Positions 1,125 through 30,819 of a stretch of DNA of 64,000 bases are shown piece after piece. The notes below the pieces were generated by a model, which did not search any database, had not been told where the DNA came from, and saw nothing but the letters and a program-made list of their open reading frames with translations. The stretch's first letter is position 1. Each line of letters opens with the position of its first letter. Source of the stretch: Algoriphagus sp. TR-M9 (lineage in GTDB: Bacteria > Bacteroidota > Bacteroidia > Cytophagales > Cyclobacteriaceae); NCBI RefSeq assembly GCF_027594545.1, contig NZ_CP115160.1, positions 3,357,001 through 3,421,000 on the forward strand. Reading direction: 5' to 3'. The position numbers and the translations under genes were made by a program.

Positions 1125-1247
1125 ATGAAATCGAGCATGTCGGAAGCGACACACAGGGGGATAATTATCTCCCAGGCGAGATTCCATCCCGTTTCCTTCG
1201 TCACGGGACAGGTTATGGCCTTTAAAAGACAAATTATAATCATATGA
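1125..1247 (+). CDS. Leader peptide A, 40 aa, stop overlaps next ATG
   Basis: This small frame begins MKSSMSEATHRG and ends GQVMAFKRQIIII. Its TGA (1245-1247) overlaps the ATG (1244-1246) that opens copy B, an ATGA arrangement typical of translational coupling. The copy at 9553-9675 encodes the same peptide with two substitutions. No known domain is recognised. Expression is inferred from conserved frame and stop position, not shown. Confidence 0.55.
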   Translation: MKSSMSEATHRGIIISQARFHPVSFVTGQVMAFKRQIIII

Positions 1248-1358
1248 AATCAAGCATGACCCGAAGCGACACACAGAGGGATGATTATAATTCATGCGAA
1301 GATTCCATCCCGAGGTATCGGGACAGGTATTGACCTTAAAAAAAATTATAAACACATG
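1125..1358 (+). repeat. Leader-peptide repeat, two tandem copies (A and B)
   Basis: Copy A runs from the ATG at 1125 to the ATG at 1244. Copy B starts at that ATG and runs to the ATG at 1356, the start of the next gene. Copy A is nearly identical to the copy at 9553 (three differences in about 120 nt). Copy A can fold as hairpins at 1138-1151 (TGTCG-GAAG-CGACA), 1156-1173 (a near palindrome), 1187-1208 (TCCCGT/ACGGGA) and a short one at 1210-1221. In copy B the third stem reads TCCCGA-GGTA-TCGGGA (1308-1323), so both arms changed together, and the fourth reads AGGT-ATTG-ACCT (1325-1336). The segment CGA(A)GATTCCATCCCG is shared. Confidence 0.85.
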
Positions 1359-1359
1359 A
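1294..1359 (+). CDS. Leader peptide B, 21 aa, retains the tail of the leader family
   Basis: In copy B a one-base insertion near its 5' end breaks the MKSSM frame, which stops at 1333. The tail frame survives with its own ATG at 1294: MRRFHPEVSGQVLTLKKIIN, then T and TGA. This parallels RFHPVSFVTGQVMAFKRQII of copies A and C. The TGA (1357-1359) overlaps the ATG at 1356 of the downstream gene. Keeping the tail frame and the overlapping stop despite indels suggests selection on translation into the next start codon. Confidence 0.45.
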   Translation: MRRFHPEVSGQVLTLKKIINT

Positions 1360-1772
1360 AAAAGCCCATCAAAACTTGCTCACAATTGCTTGAGGACTAT
1401 AGTCTGGCCTTGGAAGACCTAACAGTCTACTCCCAACGATCCAAAAACACCAAATTATCCGAATCACAATCCAGGGAATTGATCAGCAGCTTTGAAAAAA
1501 CCCACGAGCTGGCGCTCTCCATTTTTACGGCTTTCTTCAAACCTTACAAAAAAGAACCATTCTCCGGATCCAGAGATCTTACCGTCGAAGCTTTTCATGC
1601 AGACCTGATAGACGACGGTCAAGCCTGGCTGGAAATGATCATCGATAGGATCAAGTACAACCCGCTCTACGAAATTGACACCCAAGAAAAGTTTCTGGAA
1701 AACATCAATAAGAAATATGTGAGATTACTTCAGCGGTTTGAGGACACCATGGCGAAAAAATTGGACACCTAG
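1356..1772 (+). CDS. HI0074-type nucleotidyltransferase substrate-binding (HEPN-like) protein, orphan
   Basis: This 138-residue, mostly helical protein resembles the substrate-binding partner of minimal nucleotidyltransferases (HI0074 / HEPN family). The recognisable stretch is GSRDLTVEAFHADLIDDGQA followed by WLEMIIDRIKYNPLYEIDTQ, corresponding to the family's SPRxVxREAF...DGExWLxMLxDRNxTSHxYDE. The usual DRNxxSHxY motif, which holds the HEPN Arg...His pair, reads DRIKYNPLYEID here, so the His is lost. Family members normally sit beside a MNT-type nucleotidyltransferase (HI0073), and none is visible. An in-frame ATG exists at 1281, but it lies inside repeat copy B, so I place the start at 1356, exactly where the leader ends. 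Confidence 0.75.
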   Translation: MKKPIKTCSQLLEDYSLALEDLTVYSQRSKNTKLSESQSRELISSFEKTHELALSIFTAFFKPYKKEPFSGSRDLTVEAFHADLIDDGQAWLEMIIDRIKYNPLYEIDTQEKFLENINKKYVRLLQRFEDTMAKKLDT

Positions 1773-1810: not shown

Positions 1811-3232
1811 TTAATAAGAGCGCATTTTGAATTTCTTCTTCAGCTCTTGGACAGCATTTCGAAAACTACTATCCGTCTCCATGAGATCATTGACCATGGT
1901 TACAGCATGAATTACCGTGGAATGGTCTCTCCCCCCAAAGTGATAGCCTATGGATTTCAATGAATGGTTTGTAAACTCCTTACAGAAGTACATTGCTACC
2001 TGACGGGCCGTTACAATTTCCTTTTTACGGGTTTTTGCTTTCAAATCATCCAGCTTGATCCCATAATATTCTGAAACGGTTTTCTGGATAAAATCCACTC
2101 CTACCTCTGTCTCAATATCCTTGATGATATTTTTCATCACGGTTTTGGCCAGTTCCAGACTGATTTCCACACGGCTCAGAGATGCATGGGCAATCAGAGA
2201 TATCAAAATCCCTTCCAGCTCTCGCACATTGGTATCTACCGTATAGGCCAGGTATTCCACTACGTCATCCGGAATCACAATCCCCTCAGATTGCATTTTG
2301 CGTCTGATAATCGCAACCCTTGTCTCAAAATCCGGCATCTGCAAATCAGCAGTCAACCCCCATTTGAATCGGGAAAGCAAACGCTCCTCAAGACCTTTCA
2401 AATCACGTGGAGGACAATCAGAGGTCATAATAATCTGCTTCTTACTTTGATGCAGGTGATTGAAAATATGAAAGAACATCTCTTGTGTTCTGTCTTTTCC
2501 TGCCAAAAATTGAATATCATCGATGATCAGCACATCTACTTGCATGTAAAAATTGGTAAAACTCTTCACATTACCATCTTTGATGGAATCCATGAACTGG
2601 TTTACAAATTTTTCCGAAGACACATATAATACAAACTTCTCCTCTGGACCATTTTTGATCTCATTGCCTATAGCCTGCACCAGGTGAGTTTTGCCCAGCC
2701 CCACTCCTCCATATACCATCAAAGGATTGAAAGAAGTAATACCGGGCTTGGTAGCTACCGCAAATCCAGCAGACCTCGCCAGTCGGTTACAATCACCTTC
2801 TATATAGGTGGTAAATGTGTATGTGGGATTCAGATTACTATTGGTCAAAGCCTCCGCGTCTAGAGATTTCATCTCAAAGGGCGTCTTGTCCGGCTCTGCA
2901 GGTGGTGCAGCAGCTTTCTTTGCACCTGAATTATTCTGTGGATAAGAAACCACATAGGGTTGATTGGCAGAATTGCCACGATCCACTACTACTGCATACT
3001 CCAGCCTTCCTCCATGCCCTAGGGTAGTTTTGATGGCCAGTTTCAATTCCTGCACATAATTATCCTCTAGCCATTCGTAAAAAAACTGACTTGGAACCTG
3101 AATGGTCAACGAAGTACCTTCCAGTTTCACAGGATTGATAGGCTTAAACCAAGTTGAAAAGCTCTGCTCATTGACGTGCTGTTCTATAACACGTAAACAT
3201 TCATTCCAAACGGCGCTAGCTTCTGAACTCAT
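1811..3232 (-). CDS. dnaA: Chromosomal replication initiator protein DnaA
   Basis: This 473-residue protein is the ATP-dependent initiator that binds DnaA boxes, opens oriC and loads the replicative helicase. Domain I (about 1-85) begins MSSEASAVWNECLRVIEQHV, then comes a short linker. The AAA+ domain carries Walker A GGVGLGKTH (about 175-183) and Walker B VLIIDDIQFL (about 235-245). The C-terminal DNA-binding domain ends with the signature GGRDHSTVIHAV (about 437-448). Length and start fit the family. No dnaN, recF or DnaA-box cluster lies beside it, so this need not be the origin. Confidence 0.98.
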   Translation of the reverse strand: MSSEASAVWNECLRVIEQHVNEQSFSTWFKPINPVKLEGTSLTIQVPSQFFYEWLEDNYVQELKLAIKTTLGHGGRLEYAVVVDRGNSANQPYVVSYPQNNSGAKKAAAPPAEPDKTPFEMKSLDAEALTNSNLNPTYTFTTYIEGDCNRLARSAGFAVATKPGITSFNPLMVYGGVGLGKTHLVQAIGNEIKNGPEEKFVLYVSSEKFVNQFMDSIKDGNVKSFTNFYMQVDVLIIDDIQFLAGKDRTQEMFFHIFNHLHQSKKQIIMTSDCPPRDLKGLEERLLSRFKWGLTADLQMPDFETRVAIIRRKMQSEGIVIPDDVVEYLAYTVDTNVRELEGILISLIAHASLSRVEISLELAKTVMKNIIKDIETEVGVDFIQKTVSEYYGIKLDDLKAKTRKKEIVTARQVAMYFCKEFTNHSLKSIGYHFGGRDHSTVIHAVTMVNDLMETDSSFRNAVQELKKKFKMRSY

Positions 3233-9552: not shown

Positions 9553-9675
9553 ATGAAATCGAGCATGTCGGAAGCGACACACAGAGGGATGATTATCTCC
9601 CAGACGAGATTCCATCCCGTTTCCTTCGTCACGGGACAGGTTATGGCCTTTAAAAGACAAATTATAATCATATGA
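9553..9675 (+). repeat. Leader-peptide repeat, copy C
   Basis: This is the third copy of the element seen at 1125-1358, with three base differences from copy A over its whole length. It starts with ATGAAATCGAGCATG and ends in ATATGA, where the gene at 9672 begins. All hairpins of copy A are possible, including TGTCG-GAAG-CGACA and TCCCGT/ACGGGA. Homology to copy A fades abruptly just upstream of the ATG (shared only ...CATGAAATCG), so the mobile or duplicated unit begins at the peptide start. Confidence 0.85.
9553..9675 (+). CDS. Leader peptide C, 40 aa, stop overlaps the DUF389 gene start
   Basis: The frame begins MKSSMSEATHRGM and ends VMAFKRQIIII, with TGA at 9673-9675 overlapping the ATG at 9672 of the DUF389 gene. 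Compared with copy A there are two amino-acid changes (I to M, A to T) and one silent change. Confidence 0.5.
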   Translation: MKSSMSEATHRGMIISQTRFHPVSFVTGQVMAFKRQIIII

Positions 9676-11579
9676 AAAAAATCACTTTTGTATATGATCC
9701 GGAAATAAAACCTGAAAAACTCGATGAGTTGCTTGAAAGGATGGATCCCAGGCCTGACAAAAAGCTTTCTTTGGATGAGTTATCTGTGGAGAATCTCAAT
9801 CAAGAGGAATGGCTGGCCTGCTCGCTGTCAGACAATCAGCTTCGTAAGCTACTCGATCAGACAAAAGACAAAGAACTAAATGTAGCCCTTCTGCCCCATC
9901 CTGAGATGGAACAGGCAAGAAAGGGGTTTGGCATACATACCAGTTTTGAAACCGCCTGGCAGGAAATCCAAGAAGCCGAGAAAATCCCCGAAACCGATTT
10001 GATGCAGGTTGACGAACACTTGACCTTTAACTCCTTAGTAGTCGGCACTTCTCTAAGCATTCTTTATTCCAATGGAGCCGATAATTTCTGGGAAGGAGTC
10101 AAAACTAGATTTTCCCAACTAATCAAACTTTTCCGAAGGGTAAAACTAAAACCCTATACCATCACTTATAAAAATGGAAAGGAGAAAAGCAAAATAGAAA
10201 TAGCTGCGATGGGGATTTTAGCAGTGGCGCACTGCGAAAGTAACTTGATTTTTCGTCGTGTCATAGAACAATCCGGTCTGGACGATGGCAGAATCCATCT
10301 GTTGATTTTGGCTCCAAAAAGCCTTTTCTCTTTGATCCAATTTGGATTACAGAACCTCTTTTTCCCTATCAAAGGTGGAACCCTTCCCAAGTTTGTGGGA
10401 TATATTTCTACAAGTGAAGTATGCCTTAGTTCTTCCGAGCGCATTCAATTTGCGGTGGATGGGGAAGAAAAAGAAGCCAAAGAATTAAAAATCTCGCTGG
10501 TAGAAGAGAAAATTAAAATACTACCCGGAGCAAGACTCCAGGAAAAAGAACCAAGTGAAGGTCCAAAATCCATCAATGTAGCGGCTCTTCCTACAGGCCG
10601 ATTGAAGGAGGAATTACTTCACTCCTATTTGCCATGGGTTCGCCATGCCACAGCGGAAGAATTCAAAGACCTTTTCACACTATTACGGACAAATTCGCAG
10701 ACTTCCTCCACCTATTTGGTGCTGATGGCGCTCTCAACTATGATTGCGACTTTCGGGCTTTTTGGGGATTCTGCACCTGTAGTGATAGGCGCGATGATTT
10801 TGGCTCCCCTGATGGGACCGATTATATCCTTGGCTATGGGCATGCTTCGCCAAGATAGCTTGCTGATCAAAAACAGCTTGATTACAATCTTCTGGGGTGT
10901 GATCGTAGGATTGTTTTTCTCGATTCTAATTTCACTGATTACGCCTTTAGAAGTGCTGAATGATCAGATACTTGCCAGAATCCGCCCGAACCTGCTTGAC
11001 CTGGGAATTGCAATAGCATCCGGAATAGCCGGAGCCTATGCCTACTCCAAGGAAGAAATCTCCAAAACTTTGGCAGGAGTGGCGATTTCCGTTGCGCTGG
11101 TTCCCCCTTTGGCTGTGGCGGGAATAGGAATCGGGTGGATGGACCAGGAAGTATTTGGTGGCGCCATGCTTTTGCTCGGCACCAACCTAGCCGGCATCAC
11201 CATGGCAGCAGCTTTGACTTTTCTGCTCCTTGGATTCAGCCCGTTCAGATTGGCAAAAAGAGGGCTTTTTATCAGTATGGGAATCCTTATTGCGATTGCT
11301 TTGCCCCTAGGATTAAGCTTTAGCAAAATGGTGAAAGAAAACTCGATAATCCAAGATCTCAGCGGCAAGGAAATCCCACATGGACTACTCAGGGAAGTGA
11401 AAGTAGTGCAGATGGAACCACTGAAACTTTCAGTGACTATACTTTCTGAAAATGCCCTGGATGAGAATGATTTCAGAGCGATCAAAGCTGAAATTGAGGA
11501 AAAGATCGGCAGGCCAGCATCCATTGAATTGACTCTGGGCGTACAATTGGGTGCCCCTATCACCAAAGCTAAGGAGTGA
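9672..11579 (+). CDS. DUF389 (TIGR00341-type) membrane protein with N-terminal lipid-kinase-like domain
   Basis: This 635-residue protein has two parts. Residues about 105-290 resemble the C-terminal half of diacylglycerol/sphingosine-kinase-like proteins (YegS family), including QFAVDGEEKEA and VEEKIKILPG, but without the N-terminal nucleotide-binding half. From about 320 the DUF389 domain begins, with hydrophobic helices and the typical run SAPVVIGAMILAPLMGPIIS. A soluble C-terminal tail follows. The function of DUF389 proteins is not established. The start at 9672 coincides with the end of leader copy C. The 3' end overlaps the convergent PP-loop gene by 11 nt. Confidence 0.82.
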   Translation: MKKITFVYDPEIKPEKLDELLERMDPRPDKKLSLDELSVENLNQEEWLACSLSDNQLRKLLDQTKDKELNVALLPHPEMEQARKGFGIHTSFETAWQEIQEAEKIPETDLMQVDEHLTFNSLVVGTSLSILYSNGADNFWEGVKTRFSQLIKLFRRVKLKPYTITYKNGKEKSKIEIAAMGILAVAHCESNLIFRRVIEQSGLDDGRIHLLILAPKSLFSLIQFGLQNLFFPIKGGTLPKFVGYISTSEVCLSSSERIQFAVDGEEKEAKELKISLVEEKIKILPGARLQEKEPSEGPKSINVAALPTGRLKEELLHSYLPWVRHATAEEFKDLFTLLRTNSQTSSTYLVLMALSTMIATFGLFGDSAPVVIGAMILAPLMGPIISLAMGMLRQDSLLIKNSLITIFWGVIVGLFFSILISLITPLEVLNDQILARIRPNLLDLGIAIASGIAGAYAYSKEEISKTLAGVAISVALVPPLAVAGIGIGWMDQEVFGGAMLLLGTNLAGITMAAALTFLLLGFSPFRLAKRGLFISMGILIAIALPLGLSFSKMVKENSIIQDLSGKEIPHGLLREVKVVQMEPLKLSVTILSENALDENDFRAIKAEIEEKIGRPASIELTLGVQLGAPITKAKE

Positions 11580-19072: not shown

Positions 19073-19080
19073 TACTTTTG
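19073..19080 (+). promoter_or_regulatory. Promoter -7 element for the riboswitch-btuB transcript
   Basis: TACTTTTG matches the Bacteroidota -7 consensus TAnnTTTG and lies about 8-10 bp before the expected 5' end of the riboswitch. No clear TTG is seen 19 bp upstream, where the sequence is a T-run. Confidence 0.55.
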
Positions 19081-19084
19081 CAGC

Positions 19085-19275
19085 CGAAATAGGTTCCCAA
19101 ACTCGCAACTGAGCTCTTGGGATTAAAAGGGAATTTGGTGTAAAACCAAAGCTGTCCCCGCAACTGTAAACCGAGCGGATTTTTCCGCAGATTTGTCAAC
19201 CATGCCATTGTTCCGAAACCAATTCGGGATGAGAAGGCGGCAAATTTAGGTGAGCCAGGAGACCTGCCCGTTTCT
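19085..19275 (+). promoter_or_regulatory. Cobalamin riboswitch
   Basis: Conserved cobalamin aptamer parts are in order: GGGAATTTGGTGTAAAACC, then AAAGCTGTCCCCGCAACTGTAA, a variable arm, and the 3' B12 box TGAGCCAGGAGACCTGCC. It binds adenosyl- or other cobalamins and turns off the downstream uptake genes. It faces btuB on the plus strand. Between the aptamer and the coding start, GCGAC...GTCGC (about 19303-19327) could be part of the expression platform. Confidence 0.95.
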
Positions 19276-19398
19276 GTTGATTCTGTGCTTTCGGAGGAAA
19301 AGCGACGAAGAATGTACCCGAGTCGCATTTTGCGGTTCCGATCCTTTCTTCCCATTTCTCTTCAAGCCCGAATCGGATTTAAACTAATTCGATCAGGC

Positions 19399-29398: not shown

Positions 29399-30727
29399 TT
29401 ATCTCAGCAGACTATTCAGATAGACTTCCACATTCGTGTAGGTTTTAGCCAAGGTGTATTCTTTAGAATCTGAAGGATCTTTGGGGTTCAAATTCATTGC
29501 CACTTCCCACTGGTCTGGCATTCCATCCCTATCCGTATCGAGAGAAACCTCTCCCTTTGGCAAAACAGGCCAACCGCCCACTTGAGTTTGTGAATCGATG
29601 ATTCCTTCACTTCCAAACTGGTTTTGACCAATTTCCACCTCCTTGACGATCCGTAGGTCGACCTCATCTCGAAAAGCACTGGCTCCTACCCTGTTCAATA
29701 CAGCCTTGAAAGCCTCATAGGCTGTCATGGTTACTGCATTAGCAAAATCAAACTCCTTTGCCGCTTCTACCAGGTTTGGATCCACTCCTTGAATTCCCAG
29801 GGAATTGTCTTCCGTCACTTGATCGGATCCTTCCATCACATTGCCGGAGACATAAAAACTGGCATAAGGTTCGTAAGGTTCTACTATTCTATCCCGATTA
29901 GATTTAGTCGCCGGGCCAGGCTTGAAGTAATTGTTCACAATATTGTACTGTCCCTCTTCCCCTGCGTAAGCACTATTTCCTTTCCAATTATAGATTACAT
30001 TGTTTCGGAAATCCACCCATTCCCTAGCAGGTTCCTTATGGTATCGGGCTCCGTTGAACCTGGGGTTTCTGCTATTATGATCGGCTAGAAGGTTATATAG
30101 AAATGAAGCTTTTTTGCCTCCCCATATGCCTCCATACCCATGTTCACCTTTCTCGTGCACGGATTTGTTTAGACTTTCAGATAAAATCGACCACTGTAGG
30201 GTGAAATTCTCATTGTCATAAAAAGACCCGCATTCGTCAGTAGCCCAACTCAGGGAGCAATGGTCAATAATGATGTCCTTATTCCGTATTGAGCTCATCG
30301 CATCATCCTGAACTTTGCTGAGGTCGCCTAGTCGACTACGTATGTAGCGAATGATGATATTATCCGCTTTGATCTTGATCGGGTAACCTTGCAGGGTGAT
30401 ACCGCCACCCGGTGCACTTTGCCCGGCTATGGTCAAATCACCATGGTTGATATCCAAACTGGATTTCAATATAATGTTTCCAGCTACTTCAAAAACTATG
30501 ATTCTAGGCTCCTTCTTTTGGATCCCATCACGAAGGGAGCCCGGACCGTCATCATTGAGGTTCGTAACTATATATATTTCCCCTCCCCGACCACCTGTGG
30601 TGTACTTACCAAACCCCTCTGCAAAGGGAAAAGCCAAAGGTTTCTCTTCATCTGGTAAGCCCACCTCCTGCGCAGCACATGAGTTATACACCAACCAAAT
30701 CAGCACTAGTACATAGGGTAGTTTCAT
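29399..30727 (-). CDS. Secreted PL1-type pectate lyase
   Basis: This 442-residue beta-helix protein cleaves polygalacturonate by beta-elimination. It starts MKLPYVLVLIWLVYNSCAAQ; the VYNSC part could also be a lipobox. Motifs shared with the second lyase at 31290 are GKYTTGGRGGEIYIVTNLND, TIAGQSAPGGGIT, IIDHCSLSWATDE and EHGYGGIWGGKKASFLYNLL. The C-terminus has DTDRDGMPDQWEVAMNLNPK, a calcium-binding-like repeat. It begins exactly where leader copy D ends, unlike the rest of the locus. Confidence 0.92.
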   Translation of the reverse strand: MKLPYVLVLIWLVYNSCAAQEVGLPDEEKPLAFPFAEGFGKYTTGGRGGEIYIVTNLNDDGPGSLRDGIQKKEPRIIVFEVAGNIILKSSLDINHGDLTIAGQSAPGGGITLQGYPIKIKADNIIIRYIRSRLGDLSKVQDDAMSSIRNKDIIIDHCSLSWATDECGSFYDNENFTLQWSILSESLNKSVHEKGEHGYGGIWGGKKASFLYNLLADHNSRNPRFNGARYHKEPAREWVDFRNNVIYNWKGNSAYAGEEGQYNIVNNYFKPGPATKSNRDRIVEPYEPYASFYVSGNVMEGSDQVTEDNSLGIQGVDPNLVEAAKEFDFANAVTMTAYEAFKAVLNRVGASAFRDEVDLRIVKEVEIGQNQFGSEGIIDSQTQVGGWPVLPKGEVSLDTDRDGMPDQWEVAMNLNPKDPSDSKEYTLAKTYTNVEVYLNSLLR

Positions 30728-30819
30728 GTGTTTATAATTTGTTTTTTAATTGTCACATGGAATCTCGCAGCGTTTATAACCATGCTAGTGTGTGTCGCTT
30801 CCGACATGCTCGATTTCAT
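30724..30819 (-). repeat. Leader-peptide repeat, copy D (diverged)
   Basis: On the minus strand the element starts ATGAAATCGAGCATG at 30819 and keeps TGTCG-GAAG-CGACA and the core GCGAGATTCCAT. It has lost the third and fourth hairpins and ends AATTATAAACACATGA at the pectate lyase start, the same end as copy B. Confidence 0.8.
30724..30819 (-). CDS. Leader peptide D, 31 aa, stop overlaps pectate lyase start
   Basis: The frame begins MKSSMSEATHTSM and ends RFHVTIKKQIINT. Its TGA (30726-30724) overlaps the ATG at 30727. Although 27 nt shorter than copies A and C, the frame and overlapping stop are kept, so the length change is a multiple of three. Confidence 0.5.
   Translation of the reverse strand: MKSSMSEATHTSMVINAARFHVTIKKQIINT

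Follow-up and report, generated by a model that had tools for sequence, protein, structure and literature searches.

Small non-autonomous mobile elements are a known kind, and several described systems come close to the one considered here. Single-strand transposition by insertion sequences of the IS200/IS605 type keeps a target on the left, carries in a matching hexamer on the right, involves subterminal hairpins and lacks inverted repeats; non-autonomous PATE-like derivatives of that group have the hairpins, a target at one end, a cleavage-like site at the other and, again, no inverted repeats. The present subject is a short repeated unit found in a stretch of 64,000 nucleotides (nt) of Algoriphagus sp. 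TR-M9 (NZ_CP115160.1, positions 3,357,001 to 3,421,000), the whole of which is called the window and supplies the positions given below unless stated otherwise. This unit is very probably a short, non-autonomous mobile element, defined by its structure, that inserts at YATGAAA (Y, C or T), mostly on start codons. With the IS200/IS605 derivatives it shares subterminal hairpins, a target at one end, a matching site carried at the other and the lack of inverted repeats; it differs from them in that no autonomous parent was found, in its start-codon hexamer target and in having a start codon inside its terminal hairpin.

Other comparisons are also pertinent. Repetitive extragenic palindromic (REP) sequences and REPINs, with their REP-associated tyrosine transposases (RAYT, or TnpA-REP), are like the element in being short, structured, non-coding, of high copy number and presumed to be moved in trans, but the element, about 95 nt long, has a three-helix fold and terminal hexamers, is located on start codons and is not enriched by Y1 genes. 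The conserved foot tag of REP/RAYT systems, as given in PMC3733652, is GTAG or CGTC. Rickettsia palindromic elements, reviewed in PMC10969869, are small repeats tolerated at protein-coding genes; those repeats are located within frames, as part of which they are translated, whereas the present element is mostly inserted ahead of the frame, whose start it renews. Leader peptides, upstream open reading frames (uORFs) and riboswitch leaders also place a short frame or a structure directly 5′ of a gene, but each of them stays with a single class of gene and has a frame or fold that is conserved, in contrast to an element that precedes unrelated genes, has a drifting frame and jumps. An earlier note on this DNA, made from its letters alone, knew of no described family to match, and none was found in Rfam or in the open-licence literature searched: the only Rfam match in the window is a cobalamin riboswitch, and near a copy the best score is 9.9 bits against a cut-off of 50 bits. 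Landing on start codons and renewing them is, as far as searched, undescribed.

The four copies and the family to which they belong

Four copies, A to D, lie where that note had placed them:

1125 to 1249, plus strand: copy A, a 125-nt form with a nested CCCG..CGGG palindrome
1244 to 1361, plus strand: copy B, a 118-nt form, the ATGAAATCAAGC variant, ending on its gene's ATGAAA (ATG 1356 to 1358)
9553 to 9677, plus strand: copy C, a 125-nt form, single, ending on ATG 9672 to 9674
30722 to 30819, minus strand: copy D, the 98-nt core form, single, ending on ATG 30727 to 30725

Each starts with ATGAAATC(G/A)AGCATG and ends on ATGAAA, as had been described. A and B form a tandem pair with ATGAAA 1244 to 1249 in common, the right end of one being the left hexamer of the other, so that the 3′ end of A is the first ATG of B; B, C and D end on gene ATGs. 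A covariance model built from 27 core units (R1) finds D at E 3.9e-21, A at 5.5e-11 and C at 1.9e-10 in a search of 424 kb, with B above E 0.05 there and at 1.9e-7 in a search of the whole genome. The four are not chance matches, and they belong to a high-copy family in Cyclobacteriaceae, a family of aquatic bacteria.

In the host genome BLAST gives at least 52 matches and R1 at least 91, both being lower bounds since part of the candidates were scored, and 83 copies with known flanks were taken for close examination. Density is judged uneven because 18 stretches of 20 kb held one further copy by R1. At E <= 1e-4 the model matches 86 of 196 genomes, in 47 of 84 genera, in a family-wide draw; a draw across the order has matches at 1e-6 in 25 of 291 genomes, of which three belong to other families. 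One exact pattern occurs in records of Algoriphagus, Cyclobacterium, Lunatimonas, Lunatibacter and Pleomorphovibrio, in one Marivirga metagenome-assembled genome (MAG) and in a small number of further MAG records. Tandem arrays are present, with from two to at least four units, and a sister type opening with ATGAAATGCCC, with the same 3′ end, was seen at L060, L115, L121 and L122.

The core unit, running from ATGAAATCGAGC to CAnATGAAA, is mostly 94 to 99 nt long (193 of the 291 insertions in a set collected by regular expression), and longer units mostly hold a palindrome at one internal place. Differing palindromes (CCCGTTTCCTTCGTCACGGG, TCCCGAA..TTCGGGA and CTGTCCG..CAGGCGGG) occur at nearly this one place in many long copies, e.g. 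that at 1125 to 1249, as if the element were itself a target for other small repeats.

Empty sites, filled sites and the polarity of insertion

That the element is mobile follows from near-identical copies at unrelated loci together with empty sites in relatives. One genome, G166, has eight copies with 99-100% identity at different loci, one being in tandem and the other seven comprising five that end on starts and two elsewhere. The site of one of these copies (L369) is empty in G196, with 94% flank identity and the flank continuing into ATGAAATCCCC; two others (L370 and L372) are filled in G196 too. Host (G000) copies are absent from G016 at what we take to be rdgB, and from G016, G018 and G020 at a gene that is presumably SDR-like, where the site of G041 is also empty but reads ATGGAA. 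At a third locus, which we take to be lytR, the site is empty in six relatives, two of which (L225 and L228) read ATGATA or ATGATT instead of ATGAAA, while in the filled relatives G016, G018, G020 and G041 the ATGAAA of the query is found twice, once in each aligned piece. The stop codon of the upstream frame overlaps the ATG at lytR, which makes the insertion one into an operon junction. The case for mobility leaves aside the empty sites at k411, k958, gatC and a second rdgB relative (G014), where the upstream side matches less cleanly. The lytR-type start codon is occupied in five species (G000, G016, G018, G020 and G041), with two tandem units in at least G018, which makes it a reused or an old insertion site.

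The polarity of insertion is clearest at one of the two recent G166 copies that are not on starts. This copy, L373, interrupts a frame of about 65 codons that is open when the flanks are joined and that is presumably PIN-like and possibly a remnant. Its left hexamer is AAGAAA and its right hexamer ATGAAA. Since ATGAAA in the native frame would be a stop, the target is the hexamer on the left, and the one on the right came with the element, as shown in this one clean case; with the same polarity at start codons, the present ATG-AAA of the gene is the element's and the native one has become the start of the leader. Retention of the target on the left and carriage of a copy of the cleavage site on the right, as in IS200/IS605 elements, is directly seen in L373 only, and the lytR pieces are consistent with it.

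The element does not look like a miniature inverted-repeat transposable element (MITE) of the classical DDE-derived kind. By eye there are only scattered matches between ATGAAATCGAGC and the reverse complement of the 3′ end, TTTCATGTGTTT, i.e. no terminal inverted repeats, and in place of a variable target-site duplication the repeat is nearly always ATGAAA, L373 having AAGAAA on the left and ATGAAA on the right. A folded element with nearly always the same hexamer at both ends could also be expected if a tyrosine recombinase carried out site-specific recombination across an ATGAAA overlap, or if insertion were RNA-mediated, with no HUH enzyme involved. Tyrosine recombination normally needs identity of the overlap, and the end hexamers of L373 differ at one base; this explanation is rated as improbable.

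An autonomous long form was also looked for and none was found: the recent copies of G166 include no one-ended copy, and among 67 named loci, none longer than 8 kb, lone ends led to variants of 195-303 nt plus two distant pairs judged to be chance.

Landing on start codons

The element inserts in one orientation at YATGAAA, rarely at related hexamers, with the hexamer at each end and mostly on start codons. In the host 59 of 71 terminal 3′ ends lie on the ATG of an open reading frame (ORF) of at least 69 codons; the remaining 12 open no such ORF. The copies are mostly on starts rather than in the middle of intergenic DNA, and the earlier note's portable unit ending exactly on the start codons of unrelated genes is borne out, also by a wider regular-expression set that overlaps the host set (134 start versus 27 non-start, with a few misparsed rows, namely L020 twice and L076 and L277 with a wrong 3′ end). 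Units with at least three identical copies, which are recent and few in number, divide into eight start and four non-start.

Simple ORF calls over 424 kb put ATGAAA at 59 native starts, 74 noncoding and 478 gene-interior sites, and the 59 of 71 exceeds the 59 of 133 ATGAAA sites that are start or noncoding (p = 5.6e-8). C or T precedes the left hexamer in 60 of 65 rows (in 56 of 61 after removal of four rows that start inside the element), compared with 42 of 59 native ATGAAA starts and 33 of 74 noncoding sites. Even against Y-preceded sites only (42 of 75) the start fraction is higher, with p 5.8e-4. Target choice and purging of gene-interior insertions account for much, not all, of the start bias. 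It is this residue, with the lack of a fixed foot tag and the adjoining of Y1 genes no more often than chance, that makes it unlikely, though worth serious consideration, that the copies are ordinary REP/RAYT repeats whose association with starts comes from YATGAAA target choice and purging only. High copy number, hairpins, native YATGAAA targets, Y1 transposases in 10 of 11 element-bearing genomes tested and the position off starts of two of the seven recent terminal G166 copies are all in keeping with such repeats.

A fold that includes the new start codon

The fold consists of a closing helix, AATC(GA)GC with GC(GA)GATT (strands AATCGAGC/GCGAGATT), hairpin 1, and a terminal hairpin, CATnTG...CAnATG, that contains the start codon. 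In copy D the two hairpins are:

30793 to 30807, minus strand: hairpin 1, ATGTCGGAAGCGACA, in which TGTCG pairs with CGACA, from fold and covariation
30725 to 30759, minus strand: start-codon hairpin, in which CATGTG (30759 to 30754) pairs with CACATG (30730 to 30725, holding the gene's ATG) around an A/T-rich loop

All three helices are kept by compensatory changes. In 99 distinct rows 95.4% of cells are paired, both sides change in eight pairs (3.6 in shuffles) and there are 108 double-change cells versus 39 in shuffles, the number falling to at most nine when the structure is shifted by 1-3 columns; this alignment was fitted to the R1 model, which favours the structure. The 27-row MAFFT alignment from which the structure came has 26 double-change cells versus 9.9 in shuffles, with both-side changes in three pairs, no more than in shuffles. 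The middle pair of the start-codon hairpin covaries as G-C, C-G and A-T. In a genome from another family of the order (G262), whose copies sit among ordinary-looking chromosomal ORFs, the terminal hairpin is CATCCG/CGGATG by paired changes, and the closing helix lacks one base on each side, a matching deletion. Hairpin 1 and the terminal hairpin, both covarying, correspond to the subterminal hairpins at both ends of IS200/IS605 elements. The hairpin foot is variable (GTCG/CGAC, GACG/CGTC, GACT/AGTC), unlike the REP/RAYT tag.

Covariation of a start-codon hairpin in 99 distinct units, and the ability of one CAT to pair with either AUG, would also be natural for a cis-regulatory RNA, e.g. a riboswitch, thermometer or protein-binding leader, in which a guide, GATTCCATnTG, pairs with one of two AUGs, that at the 5′ end or that of the gene, as a translational switch spread as a regulon. 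The downstream genes are unrelated, though, several units may stand in tandem, 12 of 71 terminal copies open no gene, recent insertions are near-identical and Rfam has no match; such a regulon is very unlikely.

The leader frame

To the earlier note the unit looked like a portable translation-coupling leader. Portability and the ends on start codons stand; a conserved coupling frame as the defining property does not. In copies A, C and D the frame from the copy's own first ATG does close with a TGA overlapping the next ATG, as that note had it, and in copy B the copy's own frame stops 25 nt before the gene's ATG. Among the 291 regular-expression insertions the TGA overlaps the gene ATG in 79 and the stop is 7 nt upstream in 57, while in the remaining 155 it is elsewhere or there is none in the stretch read. 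The ratio of nonsynonymous to synonymous variation (pN/pS) is 0.85-0.91 in the leader frame versus 0.78-1.05 in the other two. A leader peptide under selection is rejected because pN/pS is no lower than in the other frames; the conserved in-frame small ORF with synonymous bias that characterizes uORFs and leader peptides, and that the earlier note had looked to, is not seen, and the frames are not conserved.

The leader frame looks incidental. The overlapping and nearby stops remain the attraction of a scheme in which a small frame, driven by the native start, is closed by a stop that overlaps the ATG of the gene, and the element is kept in place because coupling is selected for. With more than half of the frames ending otherwise, pN/pS not below that of the other two frames taken together, conserved changes that track base pairing and coupling possibly a by-product of the landing site, this scheme is doubtful. 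Re-initiation may occur where the leader stop is near the gene's ATG.

How the element may move, and the search for an enzyme

On the favored reading, that of a non-autonomous mobile element, insertion displaces the native start ATGAAA some 90-120 nt upstream, where it opens a short frame, and the gene keeps an intact ATG-AAA, taken to be supplied by the element. A single-strand transposase of the IS200/IS605 (HUH) type, acting in trans, would recognize the hairpins and cleave after both GAAA ends; transposition of this kind fits the element's ends. The gene would then be translated directly from the element's A/T-rich 3′ end, or by re-initiation after the leader frame. Starts would dominate for three reasons: gene-interior insertions are purged, YATGAAA is frequent at starts and a functional start comes with the element.

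The host has three Y1 proteins that are IS200-like by NCBIfam, with a Y---Q--HH signature. In PMC6006769 this is the signature of subclass 1.2, generally without the typical terminal structures. From 155 Y1 matches 65 Y1_Tnp loci were fetched, amounting to 208 kb. A regular-expression scan of 35 of them gave both ends in L046 only, with single loose matches in L049, L051 and L089, and in the 30 others both ends in L290 and L301, with single loose matches in L281, L303 and L309. A linked Y1_Tnp (RAYT) mobilizer is not supported, the element standing beside Y1 genes in about the chance number. Two different repeats were met during this search. In L046 (1370-2230) GGAACGTCTGGT/TTCC..GGAA palindromes, a separate REP-like family, flank the Y1 gene, and in L047 (G000:C1, ~4.473-4.476 Mb) several ORFs that repeat KTRRVATIHNPRQS, a different repeat array, come after an IS200-like Y1 gene.

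Several points weigh against the favored reading. No mobilizing enzyme was tied to the element in the Y1_Tnp searches: R1 finds it in three of the 65 loci (L046, L290 and L301), whereas chance alone, given the host's density of roughly one copy per 50 kb, would place some four there, and in these three it lies 3′ of the Y1 gene and antisense, opening no long ORF (16, 51 and 7 codons). One genome (G013) has many diverged copies but no Y1_Tnp match. Bias as to replication strand is weak, with 45 copies against the fork and 38 with it (genes 121/170, p 0.046). The left/right rule depends on the single case of L373, where the interrupted frame, with its 65 or so codons, is possibly a remnant, and GT and AC cells are nearly even (17 versus 12), distinguishing neither RNA from single-stranded DNA nor the active strand.

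A fuller version, offered tentatively and itself rather unlikely, is that of a mobile element specialized for start codons: it would insert behind the first ATG-AAA, take over that start for its own leader, give the gene a new ATG in a hairpin and, by a guide that pairs with either AUG, perhaps install a translational switch on an unrelated gene. Its mobility would come from an orphan transposase that acts on single strands, for instance one of the Bacteroidetes IS200-like proteins with Y---Q--HH.

Downstream genes and other features of the window

The genes that follow the copies are mutually unrelated, their assignments agreeing with those first made:

1356 to 1772, plus strand: gene 3′ of A/B, NTase_sub_bind, HI0074-like, PF08780 (TIGR01987 below its cut-off)
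9672 to 11579, plus strand: gene 3′ of C, DUF389 protein of 635 codons
29399 to 30727, minus strand: gene 3′ of D, pectate-lyase-like protein of 442 codons

The last has no Pfam match; it matches 9buj at E 2e-89, the PelZ model being far below its cut-off. Two further features were noted:

1811 to 3232, minus strand: dnaA, with three DnaA Pfam domains
19074 to 19285, plus strand: cobalamin riboswitch aptamer, 109 bits

The dnaA gene sits in steadily negative GC skew. Among the 19 stretches sampled, sign changes of the skew fall near 2.0-2.1 Mb and in the interval from 4.57 Mb to the start of the contig, i.e. elsewhere, so that by skew dnaA is not an origin marker.

Implications

Insertion at a start codon would normally be expected to silence the gene, and here an element lands there and leaves the gene intact, including genes that presumably are gatC, rdgB, mscL and pyrH. 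It could mislead the annotation of gene starts and uORFs. With it, one can put to the test the idea that mobile DNA alters how translation is initiated while the protein stays unchanged. The element would amount to a portable 5′ leader of natural origin, carried by many genes in each genome across one bacterial family.
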